Shown here in pieces: positions 31,777 through 39,292 of a stretch of DNA of 39,710 bases; the first letter of the stretch is position 1, and each line of letters begins with the position of its first letter. A program made the position numbers and the translations under genes. Origin of the DNA: an uncultured Verrucomicrobiae bacterium (lineage in GTDB: Bacteria > Verrucomicrobiota > Verrucomicrobiia > Limisphaerales > J093); the NCBI GenBank assembly GCA_937976685.1, contig CALJWR010000363.1:1-39710 (forward strand). The letters run 5' to 3'. The notes under the pieces are model-generated. The model was not told where the DNA came from. It searched no databases and saw only the letters and a list, made by a program, of their open reading frames with translations.

Positions 31777-32631
31777 TTATTCGATCGGCAACGGACTGCT
31801 GGAGCGCTCCTGGAGCCAGGCCACGTCCGGATTGTCCGGCGAGTGGACACCCAACTGGATGATCTGATTGGCGTGGAGTTGCGGCATGGTGCGACGGTCG
31901 CGCCAGCGTTTGGTCTCGCCATGGCCGTCCGCAAACATGATCCCGGCCGCGCCGCCGTGGTAGGCCGCCGGGTAGTCGACGATCTTTGACGCGCTCCGGC
32001 GATCCTTCAGATTGGTCTGAAACAGCCCGTCGTTGATGCTGTCCTCCCGCTCATCAATGAACACCCACGCCTTCTCAACGGGCGGATCCACAATGTCGGT
32101 CAGGCGCCGGAAGATCCGGTACCGATCCTGCCCGATGTCGCCGGAGCCTACGTAGTTCATCCAGCAATTCATCGAAATGCTGCGCACCCGCGGGTAATCC
32201 CGCCCGCTGATACGCACGGTGCTGCGGTCCGCCGGACAGCGGTACGGCGCTGCGGAGCGGAGGTACGGGCCAATCTGCGAAAACTCCCGGTCCGTCAGGT
32301 ACACGGTGTTGGTGTTGTCCGAACTGCCATTCATGGCCAGCCAGCCCGAGACCCAGCGGTCCGATCCCGGGAAGGAGCCCCCGGCCACCCCGGGGAGGAC
32401 GTCGCCATTATCTTGCGCGTACATCGTCCACGCCAGATGCACGTGCTTCAGGTTGTTGAGGCACACCACGCTCTGGACACGACGTTTCGACGCGCTCAAC
32501 GCGGGGAGCAGGAGGCTGAACAGGATCGCCACGACCGCGACCACCAACAGGAGTTCGAGCAGCGTGAACCCTCCCCGCGTCCGGCCAGCCGGCCCGACGT
32601 GCCCGAAAGAGTTTTTCGCGGTCCCGATCAT
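31777..32631 (-). CDS. Prepilin-type protein, paralogue of the 15238-16095 protein
   Basis: A 284-residue prepilin-type protein. The leader ends at Gly21 before FTLLE (F22 to E26), then the helix LLLVVAVVAILFSLLLPAL. The C-terminal domain is clearly homologous to that of the protein at 15238-16095: NGSSDNTNTVYLTDRE, YRCPADRS, RVRSISMNCWMN, FIDEREDSINDGLF, FADGHGETKRW and DVAWLQERS align with counterparts there. It is expected to be processed by prepilin peptidase and exposed outside the cytoplasmic membrane. The ATG at 32631 gives a normal leader; a longer upstream frame exists without need. It is divergent from nrfHA, with 263 bases between the two starts. Function is unknown. Confidence 0.88.
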   Translation of the reverse strand: MIGTAKNSFGHVGPAGRTRGGFTLLELLLVVAVVAILFSLLLPALSASKRRVQSVVCLNNLKHVHLAWTMYAQDNGDVLPGVAGGSFPGSDRWVSGWLAMNGSSDNTNTVYLTDREFSQIGPYLRSAAPYRCPADRSTVRISGRDYPRVRSISMNCWMNYVGSGDIGQDRYRIFRRLTDIVDPPVEKAWVFIDEREDSINDGLFQTNLKDRRSASKIVDYPAAYHGGAAGIMFADGHGETKRWRDRRTMPQLHANQIIQLGVHSPDNPDVAWLQERSSSPLPIE

Positions 32632-32804
32632 GTTCGGTTCTGGGTTCCGCCAAAGGAAACTAGGACTCCCGCCCATTCATGCAAGACGGATTTCAGCGCG
32701 GTCGCCCGTCTCAGATCGCCTGAAGAGGCTGCGTTCGGCAAGGGGACGACCGGCTGGTGATTCGTGCTCGCCGAAGCACGCGTCGCGGTCCCGGCGTGCG
32801 CTGT

Positions 32805-32894: not shown

Positions 32895-33356
32895 ATGAAA
32901 CTCCGAACCGCGGCCGGAATCATCTTGGGCACGGTCATGGGCCTCGCCTTCGGCGTGGTCGCTTTCACCTTCGTCTATGCCAAGGGCGCGTCGTATCTGA
33001 CCGACGATTCCGCCGCGTGCGCCAACTGCCACATCATGCGGGAGCAATACGACGGCTGGATCAACTCCAGCCACCGCAGCGTGGCGTCCTGCAATGATTG
33101 CCACACCCCGGACGGCCTGATCCCGAAATACTGGTCCAAGGCGCAGAACGGCTTCTGGCATTCCTTCTATTTCACCACCGGGAATCACCCGGACCCCATC
33201 CGCATCAACGAGCGCAACCGTCGCATCACCGAGGACGCCTGTCGCAAATGCCATGCGGACATCGTCCACGGCATCGAAGGGGTCGGACGGGGTGACGCGC
33301 CGGGCAACCGCGCCTCCTGCCTGCACTGTCATCGTAGCGTCGGCCACTTGCACTGA
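32895..33356 (+). CDS. nrfH: Cytochrome c nitrite reductase small subunit NrfH
   Basis: A 153-residue membrane-anchored tetraheme cytochrome of the NapC/NirT/NrfH family. A single N-terminal helix (about 7-28, AGIILGTVMGLAFGVVAFTF) anchors it in the cytoplasmic membrane. Four CXXCH heme sites follow at 42-46, 66-70, 116-120 and 142-146. The first is CANCHIM, with a Met two residues after the His as in known NrfH heme 1 (methionine ligation). NrfH takes electrons from menaquinol and passes them to NrfA. It overlaps nothing and is followed by nrfA six bases later, the standard nrfHA operon. Its ATG lacks a strong Shine-Dalgarno sequence. An FNR-like box lies upstream. Confidence 0.95.
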   Translation: MKLRTAAGIILGTVMGLAFGVVAFTFVYAKGASYLTDDSAACANCHIMREQYDGWINSSHRSVASCNDCHTPDGLIPKYWSKAQNGFWHSFYFTTGNHPDPIRINERNRRITEDACRKCHADIVHGIEGVGRGDAPGNRASCLHCHRSVGHLH

Positions 33357-33362
33357 ATCTCC

Positions 33363-34796
33363 ATGAAAACGGCACACTACCCACCCCAAGCACCTTGGCT
33401 CCCGCAACGCGGCGGCCAGATTGCCAAATTTGGCGCCGTGGTTGGCCTGGCTGCACTGGTTACCATCGCCGGCCTTGCCTTGCTCGTGAACATCATGGAG
33501 CGCAAGCAGGAGGCGAGGAATCCGTTCTTCCGTGTGGTCGAGTTGACCGATGACACGGATGATCCCGTCATCTGGGGCAAGAACTTCCCGCTTCAGTATG
33601 ACTCCTACCGCCGCACCGTGGACCAGGTGCGCACCCGTTACGGTGGCAGCGAAGCCGTGCCCCGCACGCCTACCGCGGTCGACCCACGCTCAATCGTCGC
33701 ACAGTCCAAACTGGAGGAAGACAGCCGCCTCAAGACGCTCTGGGCAGGCTTCCCATTTGCCCTCGACTTCCGCGAGGAGCGGGGCCACGCCTACATGCTC
33801 GATGACCAGACGTTCACCGGCCGCCAAGCACGACCGCAACCGGGCGCATGCCTCAACTGCCACTCCTCAAGCTACGTGGCGCACAAGCGCGCCGGAGACG
33901 GCGATCTCTTCAAAGGCTTCGAGAAAGTGAACGCGATGCCCTTCGCCGAGGCGCGCAAACTGGTGGAACATCCGGTCTCGTGCATTGATTGCCACCATCC
34001 TCAGACCATGCAACTGCGCATCACTCGACCCGCCTTCATGGAGGGCATCAAGGCCTTGAAAGCCAGCGAGGGGATGGCCGACTACGACGTGAATACCATG
34101 GCCACCCGGCAGGAGATGCGCAGCTTCGTCTGTGCTCAGTGTCACGTGGAGTACTATTTCAAGGGGCCAGAGCGCCGGTTGGTTTTCCCGTGGTCCAAGG
34201 GGCTCAAGGTCGAGGACATGCTCGCCTATTACGACGAGATCGGTTTTTCGGACTGGAAACACGCCGAGACCGGCTCGCCGCTCCTGAAGGCGCAGCACCC
34301 CGAGTTCGAACTCTGGCAGCAGGGCACCCATGCCCGATCTGGCGTGGCGTGTGCCGACTGCCACATGCCGTATGAGCGGGTTGGCGCCGCCAAGGTCAGC
34401 AACCACCACGTCCGCAGTCCGCTGCTGGATGTCAACAAGGCGTGCCAGACCTGTCACAAGTGGTCGGAAAAGGAACTGCTGGACCGCACCCATCTGATCC
34501 AGGACCGCACCCACACCTTGCGCGACCGCGCGATGGACGCCGTGGTGGACCTCATCGCCGACCTCAAGGCCGCCGTCGCCGCCGGCCGCACCGACCAAGA
34601 GCTGACCGAAGCGCGCGGGTTCCACCGCAAGGCGCAGTTTTACGTGGACTACGTGGAAGCGGAGAACTCGATGGGCTTCCACGCGCCCCAGGAAGCCGCG
34701 CGCATCCTCGGCGAAGCGATTGACTACGCACGCCAGGGCCAGAACGCGCTCCGCCGCCTGCCCGTGACGCCCGCGACTGCTGCCGTCGGACGCTGA
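33363..34796 (+). CDS. nrfA: Cytochrome c nitrite reductase NrfA (CXXCH heme-1 type)
   Basis: A 477-residue pentaheme enzyme reducing nitrite to ammonium with six electrons. Heme-binding sites are CLNCH (163-167), CIDCH (207-211), CAQCH (257-261), CADCH (330-334) and CQTCH (361-365). Around them are NrfA hallmarks: CAQCHVEYYF with the active-site Tyr, LLKAQHPEFELW with the active-site His, and NHHVRSPL. The first, catalytic heme site is CXXCH and not the CXXCK typical of E. coli-type enzymes. The N-terminus has an uncleaved-looking helix (about 22-44, KFGAVVGLAALVTIAGLALLV), so the enzyme may be membrane-anchored with its catalytic part in the periplasm. It follows nrfH by six bases. No heme-lyase genes of cytochrome c maturation are in view. 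Confidence 0.95.
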   Translation: MKTAHYPPQAPWLPQRGGQIAKFGAVVGLAALVTIAGLALLVNIMERKQEARNPFFRVVELTDDTDDPVIWGKNFPLQYDSYRRTVDQVRTRYGGSEAVPRTPTAVDPRSIVAQSKLEEDSRLKTLWAGFPFALDFREERGHAYMLDDQTFTGRQARPQPGACLNCHSSSYVAHKRAGDGDLFKGFEKVNAMPFAEARKLVEHPVSCIDCHHPQTMQLRITRPAFMEGIKALKASEGMADYDVNTMATRQEMRSFVCAQCHVEYYFKGPERRLVFPWSKGLKVEDMLAYYDEIGFSDWKHAETGSPLLKAQHPEFELWQQGTHARSGVACADCHMPYERVGAAKVSNHHVRSPLLDVNKACQTCHKWSEKELLDRTHLIQDRTHTLRDRAMDAVVDLIADLKAAVAAGRTDQELTEARGFHRKAQFYVDYVEAENSMGFHAPQEAARILGEAIDYARQGQNALRRLPVTPATAAVGR

Positions 34797-35836: not shown

Positions 35837-38557
35837 ATGAATTCAGAGTTTCGCTTCACCCTCGCGCCGTGCCTCGGCCGTCTGCTCGCCCATTTCTTGG
35901 TTGCCACTTTGCCCGCGCTCGCTGCTGACACCGAAACCGTCGGTCGCAAGGACGGCAACCGCACGGTCCTGCCCGTAAATCAGGTCGTCACGCCGCTGGG
36001 GAAACAGACCGATCTCGCCGGTCTGCGGCCACAGGCGATGGCGCTCTCACCCGATGGCCGCCGACTGGTCGTCTCCGGCAAGACGAGCGAACTCCTCGTG
36101 CTCGATCCGGCAACCGGGGGCATTTTGCAGCGGGTCCCTCTTCCCTCGGATAAGCAGAATGAACCTTTGCCGCCTACGGCCTCCGACAACATCCTGCAAC
36201 CGGATACCAAAGGGCAGGTGAGCTACACCGGCGTCATTTTCTCGCCGGACGGACGGCGCATCTTCCTGAGCAACGTCAACGGGAGCATCAAGGTGTTCTC
36301 GGTTGACGCTAATGGCTCGGTCTCGCCCTCGCATTCGCTGCCGCTGCCGCCGGCCGATGCGCCGCGGCGCAAAGAGGAAATCCCGGCGGGGCTGGCCCTC
36401 TCACCCGACGGTTCCCGCTTGTACGTTTGCGGCAATCTCTCCAACACGCTCCTTGAACTGGACGTCGCGACCGGCCGCGTGCTGCGCACCTTCGCGGTGG
36501 GCGTTGCGCCGTACGACGTGGTGCTGCTGGGCAACAAAGCGTATGTGAGCAATTGGGGCGGACGACGGCCCGGTTCGGGCGACCTTGTGGGTCCCGCCGG
36601 TCGCGGCACGCAGGTGCGGGTGGATCCGGTGATGCACATCGCGAGCGAAGGATCGGTCACCGTCGTCCAACTGAACGTGAGCGAACGAGCGGGAAGCGCG
36701 GATTTCGATATTCTGACCGGCCTGCACGCCTCCGCCCTCGCACTGTCACCGGATCGCCGCTGGCTGGTGTGCGCCAACGCGGCGGCGGACAATCTCAGTG
36801 TCATTGACACCCGGACCGACCGGGTGGCGGAAACGATCTGGGTGAAGCCCAGCCCCAGCGATCTGCTCGCGGCCTCGCCGAACGCGCTGGCCTTCTCGGC
36901 CGACGGCAAAACGCTCTACGTCGCCAACGGGACACAAAACGCCATCGCGGTGGTGGACTTCTCGCCGGCCCGCCAGCGCTCGAAGCTGCGGGGCCTTTTC
37001 CCGGTGGGGTGGTTTCCGGGCGCCTTGGTGCTGGACGCGCCCCGTCAACAGCTTTGTGTCGCCAACATCAAGGGACACCCGCTTCAACCGAAGCCCTATC
37101 GCGAGACAGGCGCCGCACCGGGCGCCGAAGGCTTCAACTCGCACCATTACCACGGCTCGCTTTCGCTCGTGCCGCTGCCGCGTCCACGCGACCTGGCCCG
37201 GATGTCGCAGACGGTGTACGACAATCTGCGTCAGGAACGCATCGCCGAGTCACTGAAGCCGCCCCGGCGCGGTCAGCCCGCGCGGGCGATCCCCGAGCGC
37301 ATCGGCGAACCGAGCCTCATCAAGCACGTGGTGTACGTGATCAAGGAGAACCGCACGTATGACCAGGTGCTGGGCGACCTGCGGGAGGGCCGGGGCGACC
37401 CGGGCCTGTGCATCTTCGGCGAACACGTCACGCCCAACCAGCACAAGCTCGCCCGGGAGTTCGTGCTGCTCGACAACACCTACTGTGCCGGCATTCTCAG
37501 CGCCGACGGCCATCAGTGGAGCACCACCGCCTTCGGCACCGACTACCTGGAAAGATCCTTCGCCGGGTGGCCGCGCAGCTATCCCGACGGCATGGGAGAA
37601 GATGAGGACGATGCGCTCGCCTATTCGCCCGCCGGCTTCATTTGGGACAACGCGCTGCGGAACAAGATCAGCATCCGCAACTACGGCGAGTTCATGGCCC
37701 CGAATGTCCGCTGGCGCGACGGGCGCAAGGGAACCCCCGACTTCCTGGCCTGTTACCGCACGTGGAAGGGCGAGAGCAACGAAGTGATCTTCGAAAGCTA
37801 CCCGATGATCCCCACCATCGCGCCCTTCTCACCGACCAACTACGTGGGCTGGGAGATGTCCGTCCCGGACCAGTACCGGGCGGATTTCATCATTCGTGAG
37901 TTGAGGGAGTTCGAGGCCCGGGGGGAATACCCGCAACTGGTGATCATCTGCCTGCCGCAGGACCACACCAGCGGCACCAGCCGCAACTGTCCGACCCCCG
38001 CCGCCACGGTCGCGGACAACGACCTCGCGTTCGGCCGGATCGTCGAGGCACTGAGCCACTCGCGTTTCTGGAAGGACATGGCGATCATCGGCATCGAAGA
38101 CGACCCGCAGGCGGGCTTCGATCACGTCAGCGGCTACCGCACGACGGCGTACATCGCGAGCCCGTACGCCAAACGCGGGGCCGTCGTCAGCACGCAGTAC
38201 AACACCACCAGCGTGCTGCGCACAATCGAGCAAATCCTCGGCCTGCCGCCGATGAACCAGTTCGACGCCAGCGCCACGCCGATGTTCGACTGCTTCTCCG
38301 ACACGCCGGACTTCGCGCCCTTCACGGCGGTGCCGAACAACGTACCGCTGGACGAGATGAATCCCGATCCCAAGGCCATCGCTGATCCGCAACTCCGGCG
38401 CGACGCGATCGTGTCCTCCCGCATGAACTTCCGCCAGGTGGACCGCGCGCCCGAGGGCGCGCTGAACCGGATCCTGTGGCGCGCCATGCGCGGCACCAAA
38501 GCCCCCTATCCGGACTGGGCGATTACCGTCCGGGGCGGCGACGACGACGATGACTGA
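35837..38557 (+). CDS. Secreted YncE-type beta-propeller / alkaline-phosphatase-like phosphoesterase
   Basis: A 906-residue bifunctional protein. After a signal peptide (about 1-31, ending FLVATLPALAAD) a seven-bladed YncE-like propeller runs over about 45-470, with repeated SPDGRRL motifs and NLSVIDTRTDRVAET. A phosphoesterase domain of the alkaline-phosphatase superfamily starts near residue 495 (HVVYVIKENRTYDQVLGD), followed by NTYCAGILSADGHQWSTTAFGTDY in two blocks, LVIICLPQDHTSGT, MAIIGIEDDPQAGFDHVSGYR and YNTTSVLRTIEQILGL. The N-terminal ENRTYD and the late D-D and D-H pairs are the expected metal ligands. Substrate (phosphate ester or phospholipid) is unknown. The C-terminus ends in a short poly-Asp run. 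This combination is common in Verrucomicrobiota and Acidobacteriota. It is expected in the periplasm or outside the cell. Confidence 0.9.
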   Translation: MNSEFRFTLAPCLGRLLAHFLVATLPALAADTETVGRKDGNRTVLPVNQVVTPLGKQTDLAGLRPQAMALSPDGRRLVVSGKTSELLVLDPATGGILQRVPLPSDKQNEPLPPTASDNILQPDTKGQVSYTGVIFSPDGRRIFLSNVNGSIKVFSVDANGSVSPSHSLPLPPADAPRRKEEIPAGLALSPDGSRLYVCGNLSNTLLELDVATGRVLRTFAVGVAPYDVVLLGNKAYVSNWGGRRPGSGDLVGPAGRGTQVRVDPVMHIASEGSVTVVQLNVSERAGSADFDILTGLHASALALSPDRRWLVCANAAADNLSVIDTRTDRVAETIWVKPSPSDLLAASPNALAFSADGKTLYVANGTQNAIAVVDFSPARQRSKLRGLFPVGWFPGALVLDAPRQQLCVANIKGHPLQPKPYRETGAAPGAEGFNSHHYHGSLSLVPLPRPRDLARMSQTVYDNLRQERIAESLKPPRRGQPARAIPERIGEPSLIKHVVYVIKENRTYDQVLGDLREGRGDPGLCIFGEHVTPNQHKLAREFVLLDNTYCAGILSADGHQWSTTAFGTDYLERSFAGWPRSYPDGMGEDEDDALAYSPAGFIWDNALRNKISIRNYGEFMAPNVRWRDGRKGTPDFLACYRTWKGESNEVIFESYPMIPTIAPFSPTNYVGWEMSVPDQYRADFIIRELREFEARGEYPQLVIICLPQDHTSGTSRNCPTPAATVADNDLAFGRIVEALSHSRFWKDMAIIGIEDDPQAGFDHVSGYRTTAYIASPYAKRGAVVSTQYNTTSVLRTIEQILGLPPMNQFDASATPMFDCFSDTPDFAPFTAVPNNVPLDEMNPDPKAIADPQLRRDAIVSSRMNFRQVDRAPEGALNRILWRAMRGTKAPYPDWAITVRGGDDDDD

Positions 38558-38635: not shown

Positions 38636-39292
38636 ATGAAGCGCGCGGCATTCACGTTGCTCGAGCTACTGGTTGTGGTGGCAGTGATCGCCATTCTCGC
38701 CAGCCTGCTCCTGCCTGCCTTGAGCCGGGCGAAGCTCCGCGTGCGCGATATCGCCTGCCTCAACAACCTGCGCCAGTGGGGCCTGGCCACGCAGCTCTAT
38801 GCGTCCGACCACGACGACTTCCTACCGCCCGACGGCACGCCCAATCCCTCAGCCAGCGCGACGAACACCGGCTGGTACGTGCTGCTGCCGCGGCAACTGG
38901 GACTGCCACGGTACCACGACCAACCGTGGCGAACCAATGCCGCCATCGAACCGGGTCGCTCGATCTTCATCTGTCCTGCGAACCCCCGGCGCAGCAACGG
39001 GCGAAACCTCTTCCACTACTGCCTCAACGAACACATCAACGGCACGGCCGAAGACAATCGTCCGGTCAAACTGAGCCATCTGGACGGCCTCCCGACCTTG
39101 GTCTGGCTCTTCGACTCCAAGAACTTGCCGGCTGTCGGCTACTGGAACTACGTGCATACGAACCTGCACGGCGGCGGGGCGCAGTTTGTTTTTCTCGATG
39201 GCCACGCCGCGCGTTTCCGGCAGGCGGACTACTGGAACTCGGCGACCGGCAAGGCCCGTACCAACCACCCCGCCCTGCGCTGGCTGCCGTGA
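38636..39292 (+). CDS. Prepilin-type protein, short form
   Basis: A 218-residue prepilin-type protein with a very short leader (MKRAA) before FTLLE (F6 to E10) and the helix [19 protein letters not shown]. The residue before the cleavage site is Ala5 and not the usual Gly; Ala is tolerated by some prepilin peptidases and is frequent in this group. After the helix come [21 protein letters not shown] and a C-terminal domain ending [13 protein letters not shown]. It is more distant from the two other prepilins in the window, sharing mainly the N-terminal helix, the CLNNL block and the DGH motif. It would be exposed at the cell surface or in the periplasm, function unknown. The ATG is preceded by a strong stem-loop and no clear Shine-Dalgarno sequence. 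Confidence 0.88.

Follow-up and report, generated by a model that had tools for sequence, protein, structure and literature searches.

The nrfA gene of the window, the whole 39,710-nt stretch of DNA analysed here, encodes an intact, unremarkable NrfA nitrite reductase of the known CXXCH clade. His167 of its first heme motif, CLNCH, is probably the proximal ligand of the catalytic heme, as judged from a comparison of 195 CXXCH and 76 CXXCK sequences (271 rows). The CXXCH branch is widespread, in print already (Nat Commun 2023), and barely studied. To this clade the comparison adds a survey of conserved lysines, a His/Asn/Gln rule for residue 165, a contrast at the cleavage column (column 41) and a contrast in neighbouring lyase genes, the last three of which were not found in the portions of the CXXCH NrfA literature available here. 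The find is an ordinary one, yet it helps make the proximal-ligand question testable.

Dropped from the comparison set were copies, either of the window or of a different locus (L001, L004, L088, L020), nine sequence duplicates, other cytochromes (L002, L003, L216-L228), ONRs (L021, L022, L266) and one fragment (L023); fragments G989, G1021 and G018, and weak matches, were not taken in.

The nrfHA locus

Pfam PF02335 (Cytochrom_C552) matches residues 69-469 of the window NrfA (E 3.4e-136). In alignments to 2vr0, 1fs9, 2j7a and E. coli NrfA, the CLNCH motif falls on the catalytic CWNCK, CWTCK or CWSCK, with the solved D. vulgaris and W. succinogenes enzymes among those so paired. The sequence-only reading had assigned it to the catalytic heme and had described the other four heme sites, the active-site Tyr and the His of KAQHPEF as intact, all of which the alignments bear out (Table 1). 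Arg140 and the calcium-site residues Q311 and E263 are intact as well; a Gln rather than an Arg before the active-site His (Q311, kept in 193 of the 195 CXXCH NrfAs) and a Glu before the Tyr predict an active site of the calcium type. There are five heme sites, not the eight of an ONR.

Table 1. Features of nrfH and nrfA, with positions in the window and residue numbers in each protein
Feature	Position	Strand	Remarks
nrfH	32895..33356	+	153 aa; membrane tetraheme quinol dehydrogenase; CXXCHXM motif is CANCHIM
NrfH heme site 1, CANCH	33018..33032	+	
NrfH heme site 2, CNDCH	33090..33104	+	
NrfH heme site 3, CRKCH	33240..33254	+	
NrfH heme site 4, CLHCH	33318..33332	+	
nrfA	33363..34796	+	477 aa, ATG start; predicted pentaheme ammonia-forming nitrite reductase, CXXCH type
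Hydrophobic segment	33429..33497	+	Residues 23-45; probable uncleaved signal anchor
Active-site Arg140	33780..33782	+	R in 193/195 CXXCH, 75/76 CXXCK
Catalytic heme 1 site, CLNCH	33849..33863	+	Residues 163-167, by alignment; candidate proximal ligand His167
Heme 2 site, CIDCH	33981..33995	+	Residue 207
Heme 3 site, CAQCH	34131..34145	+	Residue 257
Active-site Tyr264	34152..34154	+	Invariant, 271/271
KAQHPEF	34287..34307	+	Calcium-site K309 and Q311, active-site His312; K309 and H312 invariant
Heme 4 site, CADCH	34350..34364	+	Residue 330
Lys344	34392..34394	+	Presumably aligns with the D. vulgaris NrfA lysine that is the putative ligand of an NrfH heme; K in 270/271
Heme 5 site, CQTCH	34443..34457	+	Residue 361

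The AlphaFold2 model, made with the window NrfA and 53 relatives, has a pLDDT of 90.8, and its best solved neighbours are NrfAs: the top Foldseek match is 1fs7 (E 6.6e-27), and the predicted fold superposes on E. coli NrfA 2rdz with a VIA Z of 40.9 (375 residues, 1.7 A). The CXXCK NrfAs of W. succinogenes and D. vulgaris (1fs7 and 2j7a; Z 39.3 and 38.0) share with it hemes 2-5, the Arg/Tyr/His triad, the calcium Gln and the NrfH lysine, and differ from it at heme 1, where it has His for Lys and a Leu, not a Trp, after the first Cys, and in its shorter C-terminal tail and probable uncleaved anchor. The residue number of the D. vulgaris lysine, and hence its match to Lys344, is our assumption. 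A lysine of this kind, presumed to coordinate an NrfH heme, is described for D. vulgaris (PMC8840924). ONRs (2ot4, 8rv0) have a common catalytic core with the window NrfA (Z 34-36), but with eight hemes and CXXCK rather than five and CXXCH. From the CXXCH clade itself nothing sets the window enzyme apart: a CXXCH first heme, a calcium-type active site, an NrfH partner and a spread over many phyla are all features of that clade (PMC10716430). Among 22 solved sequences found, none is labelled a CXXCH NrfA, and the motif is CXXCK in all five alignments in which it was read; an intact nrfHA pair for which a His ligand, an anchor and a general heme lyase are clearly predicted would be a good target for the first structure from this branch.

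The nrfH product exceeds the TIGR03153 equivalog cut-off (163.9 against 134.2 bits), and its sole match among solved structures is chain C of 2j7a (E 1.2e-12). It lies upstream of nrfA on the same strand, six bases away, in a two-gene nrfHA unit that gives NrfA its redox partner within the operon. An NrfH-like gene lies directly upstream at 183 of 194 CXXCH loci (window excluded) and is missing at four, with the contig edge too near to judge at the remaining seven. Two CMTCK NrfAs (L200, L259) have a tetraheme NrfH-like gene downstream and none upstream.

The flanking genes are unrelated, encoding a pilin-like protein upstream (opposite strand) and a 3-keto-disaccharide hydrolase downstream. 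Pilin-like proteins with N-terminal methylation motifs are found at 31777-32676 (-) and 38636-39292 (+), the latter with an additional DUF1559 match, and a 906-aa protein at 35837-38557 has a lactonase-like beta-propeller fused to a phosphoesterase domain.

Proposed function

From the gene, its predicted fold, the motif, the conserved residues and the gene order, we infer His ligation, an anchor, an electron route and activity; it is reasonably probable that nrfHA encodes a quinol-driven nitrite-to-ammonium reductase with a His167 ligand, a general lyase and a likely anchored helix. NrfH would pass electrons from menaquinol to an NrfA dimer, in which hemes 2-5 would relay them to heme 1. There, above a five-coordinate heme with His167 of CLNCH as its proximal ligand, Arg140, Tyr264 and His312 would bind nitrite and protonate it. 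The heme of such an ordinary CXXCH site could be attached by the general System II synthase, so that a dedicated lyase would be unneeded. The N-terminal helix, most likely uncleaved, would keep NrfA in the membrane beside NrfH.

The N-terminal helix

The hydrophobic N-terminal helix noted earlier is present as described, with R16 and K22 in the basic stretch before it. Its model is a single unbroken helix from residue 16 to 51 (mean pLDDT 95 and 98 over residues 21-40, 90 over 41-50), although such a model does not discriminate between anchors and signal peptides. A hydrophobic segment, taken as a mean hydropathy of at least 1.6 over 19 residues, is found in 192/193 CXXCH and 73/74 CXXCK sequences. 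The PDB chains of W. succinogenes NrfA have 507 and 485 residues; the 22 extra ones are N-terminal, and the junction lies between LLA and SNINER. The column aligned to this cleavage Ala, column 41, holds a small residue in 65 of 73 CXXCK sequences versus just 6 of 192 CXXCH ones, and L41 in the window; the pairing of A22 with L41 used here follows the NI.ER motif, while a weak N-terminal phmmer stretch pairs A22 with A39.

The bulky column 41 of the CXXCH clade favours an uncleaved anchor, without proving it, and on these comparisons the helix of the window NrfA is likely to be one. The other reading, in which it is a signal peptide cleaved for example after Ala39, leaving a soluble periplasmic NrfA whose only hold on the membrane is NrfH, as in W. 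succinogenes, is rather unlikely, although cleavage would be possible there: a pair permissive under the (-3,-1) rule is present at column 39 in 131/192 CXXCH sequences, G37-L38-A39 of the window among them, and known NrfAs are called soluble (PMC3475470). Against it, the aligned cleavage position is not small in 186 of the 192, the LLVNIM after Ala39 extends the hydrophobic run, and the model helix continues unbroken through this region, for what a model of this kind can say. The tether beside NrfH proposed from the sequence thus gains from column 41 and is weakened by the permissive Ala39. No title or abstract opening seen in the literature on membrane-anchored NrfA treats anchoring in the CXXCH clade; one paper gives lipoprotein predictions for Firmicutes NrfA.

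Physiological role

That the main role is removal of nitrite, NO or hydroxylamine rather than respiratory growth, or that the main substrate is a different one, seems improbable. NO and hydroxylamine are further substrates of NrfA (PMC8840924), and no frame among the scanned molybdopterin frames of the window's genome (80% complete) reaches the NarG or NapA cut-off. However, nitrite may be supplied from outside, and a quinol-coupled NrfH together with the full set of catalytic residues suggests the same chemistry, in keeping with a nitrite-to-ammonium reductase. One 1192-aa frame of this genome (L306, contig C244) belongs to the type II DMSO reductase alpha family but is below every equivalog cut-off; it is possibly a nitrate or nitrite oxidoreductase.

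The proximal ligand of the catalytic heme

His167 is invariant in the 195 CXXCH NrfAs, but by the way the sequences were sorted. No lysine is conserved in CXXCH NrfAs alone among the 195 CXXCH and 76 CXXCK sequences. Lysines in at least 194 of the 195 are limited to K309 and K344, both also present in 76/76 CXXCK, and with the only (near-)invariant lysines fixed in CXXCK too, no clear candidate for a substitute is left. That a lysine from elsewhere ligates the heme instead of the motif His, a choice described in a 2025 review as not yet reported and left open there (PMC12285233), is therefore very improbable, the best remaining positions being K48 and K116 (162 and 139 of 195). K309 belongs to the stretch with the calcium site and active site, and K344 matches the presumed NrfH-ligating lysine in the alignment. 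The earlier suggestion that His replaces Lys as proximal ligand is strengthened by this survey, which is a comparison of sequences only.

When Lys-to-His changes have been engineered, activity was at most 40% of wild type in W. succinogenes (K134H), and the E. coli variant was inactive (PMC8840924), so the natural CXXCH clade must compensate. Residue 165, the second X, is His (146), Asn (35) or Gln (14) in the 195 CXXCH sequences versus Thr (48), Ser (23), Ala (4) or Val (1) in the 76 CXXCK ones. Other columns fixed in CXXCH and rare in CXXCK include M145, Q149, R339 (13/76 CXXCK) and E434 (15/76 CXXCK), and we infer that these clade-specific residues, with 165, are candidates for the compensation. 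A tentative extension, with slightly less than an even chance of holding, is that the clade goes beyond a point variant and represents a coordinated redesign of NrfA, with a His-ligated heme tuned by residue 165 and others, no dedicated lyase and its own anchor. If so, both subunits of the NrfHA complex would have transmembrane helices, and the harm done by a bare Lys-to-His swap in CXXCK enzymes, as against a natural clade thriving in soil, would be explained.

Heme attachment and the C-terminal tail

In the window's genome, one ResB match and a CcsB-like frame lie close together on contig C196, and there is a second, separate CcsB-like frame; both CcsB-like frames are below the equivalog cut-off, and no ResB match or CcsB-like frame is on the window's contig. 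The genome is 80% complete, at which the absence of a lyase is not demonstrable. Across 79 genomes hand-picked from the draws, some with short contigs, 13/34 CXXCK versus 0/45 CXXCH genomes have a PF01578 match no further than 10 kb from nrfA (Fisher 3.5e-6), and 13 and 1, respectively, have one within 20 kb, all of these being "at least" counts because some weak matches are unlisted. Rows of the same clade are not independent, and with about one motif change on the tree the lyase contrast amounts to about one event. The missing lyase neighbour in CXXCH genomes backs the use of the general System II synthase, as support and not proof.

The tail from H440 to the end has a median of 35 residues in CXXCH versus 88 in CXXCK sequences. 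In E. coli it binds a maturation chaperone (PMC12285233). A reading of the short tail as a lost CXXCK maturation signal was rejected: CYSCK NrfAs have tails of 30-59 residues, and CXXCK accounts for 14/17 NrfAs in the Chloroflexi draw. CXXCK enzymes therefore do not require a long tail, nor is the lack of one linked to the motif.

Phylogeny and distribution

On a quick tree of the 271 rows, built without the motif columns, the CXXCH/CXXCK label changes once; with an ONR outgroup it needs two changes. A more careful tree of 58 rows groups 33 of 35 CXXCH rows (support 100/99); this group contains a starred CXXCH set of 17 rows, to which the window belongs. Both trees agree with the reported monophyly of CXXCH NrfAs (PMC10716430); an earlier survey has three CXXCH clades of 18 (PMC8840924). 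The two sequences outside the main group in the careful tree, L056 and L199 (motifs CMNCH and CANCH), may go back to a second origin or to an early branching. Neither a single CXXCH clade (p-AU 0.41) nor a single CXXCK clade (0.56) is rejected and the base of this tree is unresolved, so the Lys/His change may have gone in either direction. The idea of a verrucomicrobial CXXCH clade, put forward with the sequence-only reading as a tree check, was rejected, since both types occur in Verrucomicrobiota and many phyla are intermingled in the CXXCH clade.

The motif in the window is not a chance variant, because 15 same-family and same-order relatives (16 with the window) also carry CXXCH at the catalytic site, with a single CXXCK NrfA among those fetched. 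A draw of 387 genomes from the window's phylum gave 63 NrfAs, counted as places with a strong NrfA match, of which 46 (including the window) are CXXCH and 17 CXXCK. The earlier description of CXXCH as a minority type thus holds among characterised NrfAs only. Draws from the phyla of a Gimesia, a Chlorobiota and a Caldilineaceae (Chloroflexi) MAG gave CXXCH:CXXCK ratios of 54:12, 6:31 and 3:14, respectively. The best 80 named contig loci matching the window NrfA are all CXXCH, which as a set of top matches gives no estimate of frequency; their titles include Verrucomicrobia, Planctomycetota, Acidobacteria, Myxococcota, Gemmatimonadetes, Chloroflexi, Bdellovibrio, Brocadia and others. CXXCH NrfAs are reported to account for about 90% of the nrfA placements from soil (PMC10716430), and active examples are named from Campylobacter jejuni and Anaeromyxobacter dehalogenans (PMC12285233).

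The anammox bacterium Candidatus Brocadia pituitae (L144) carries a CXXCH NrfA. Those of two Telmatospirillum MAGs (L128, L130) have the calcium Glu changed to Thr and the calcium Gln to Arg (MKARHPEF), and are predicted to be calcium-free enzymes inside the CXXCH clade. In two Holophagaceae MAGs (L159, L168) the active-site Arg is replaced by Gln (NQRQGH), while their Geothrix relatives (L160, L161) keep it. ONR-like octaheme nitrite reductases with CXXCK occur in other genomes of the window's family (L021) and order (L022).
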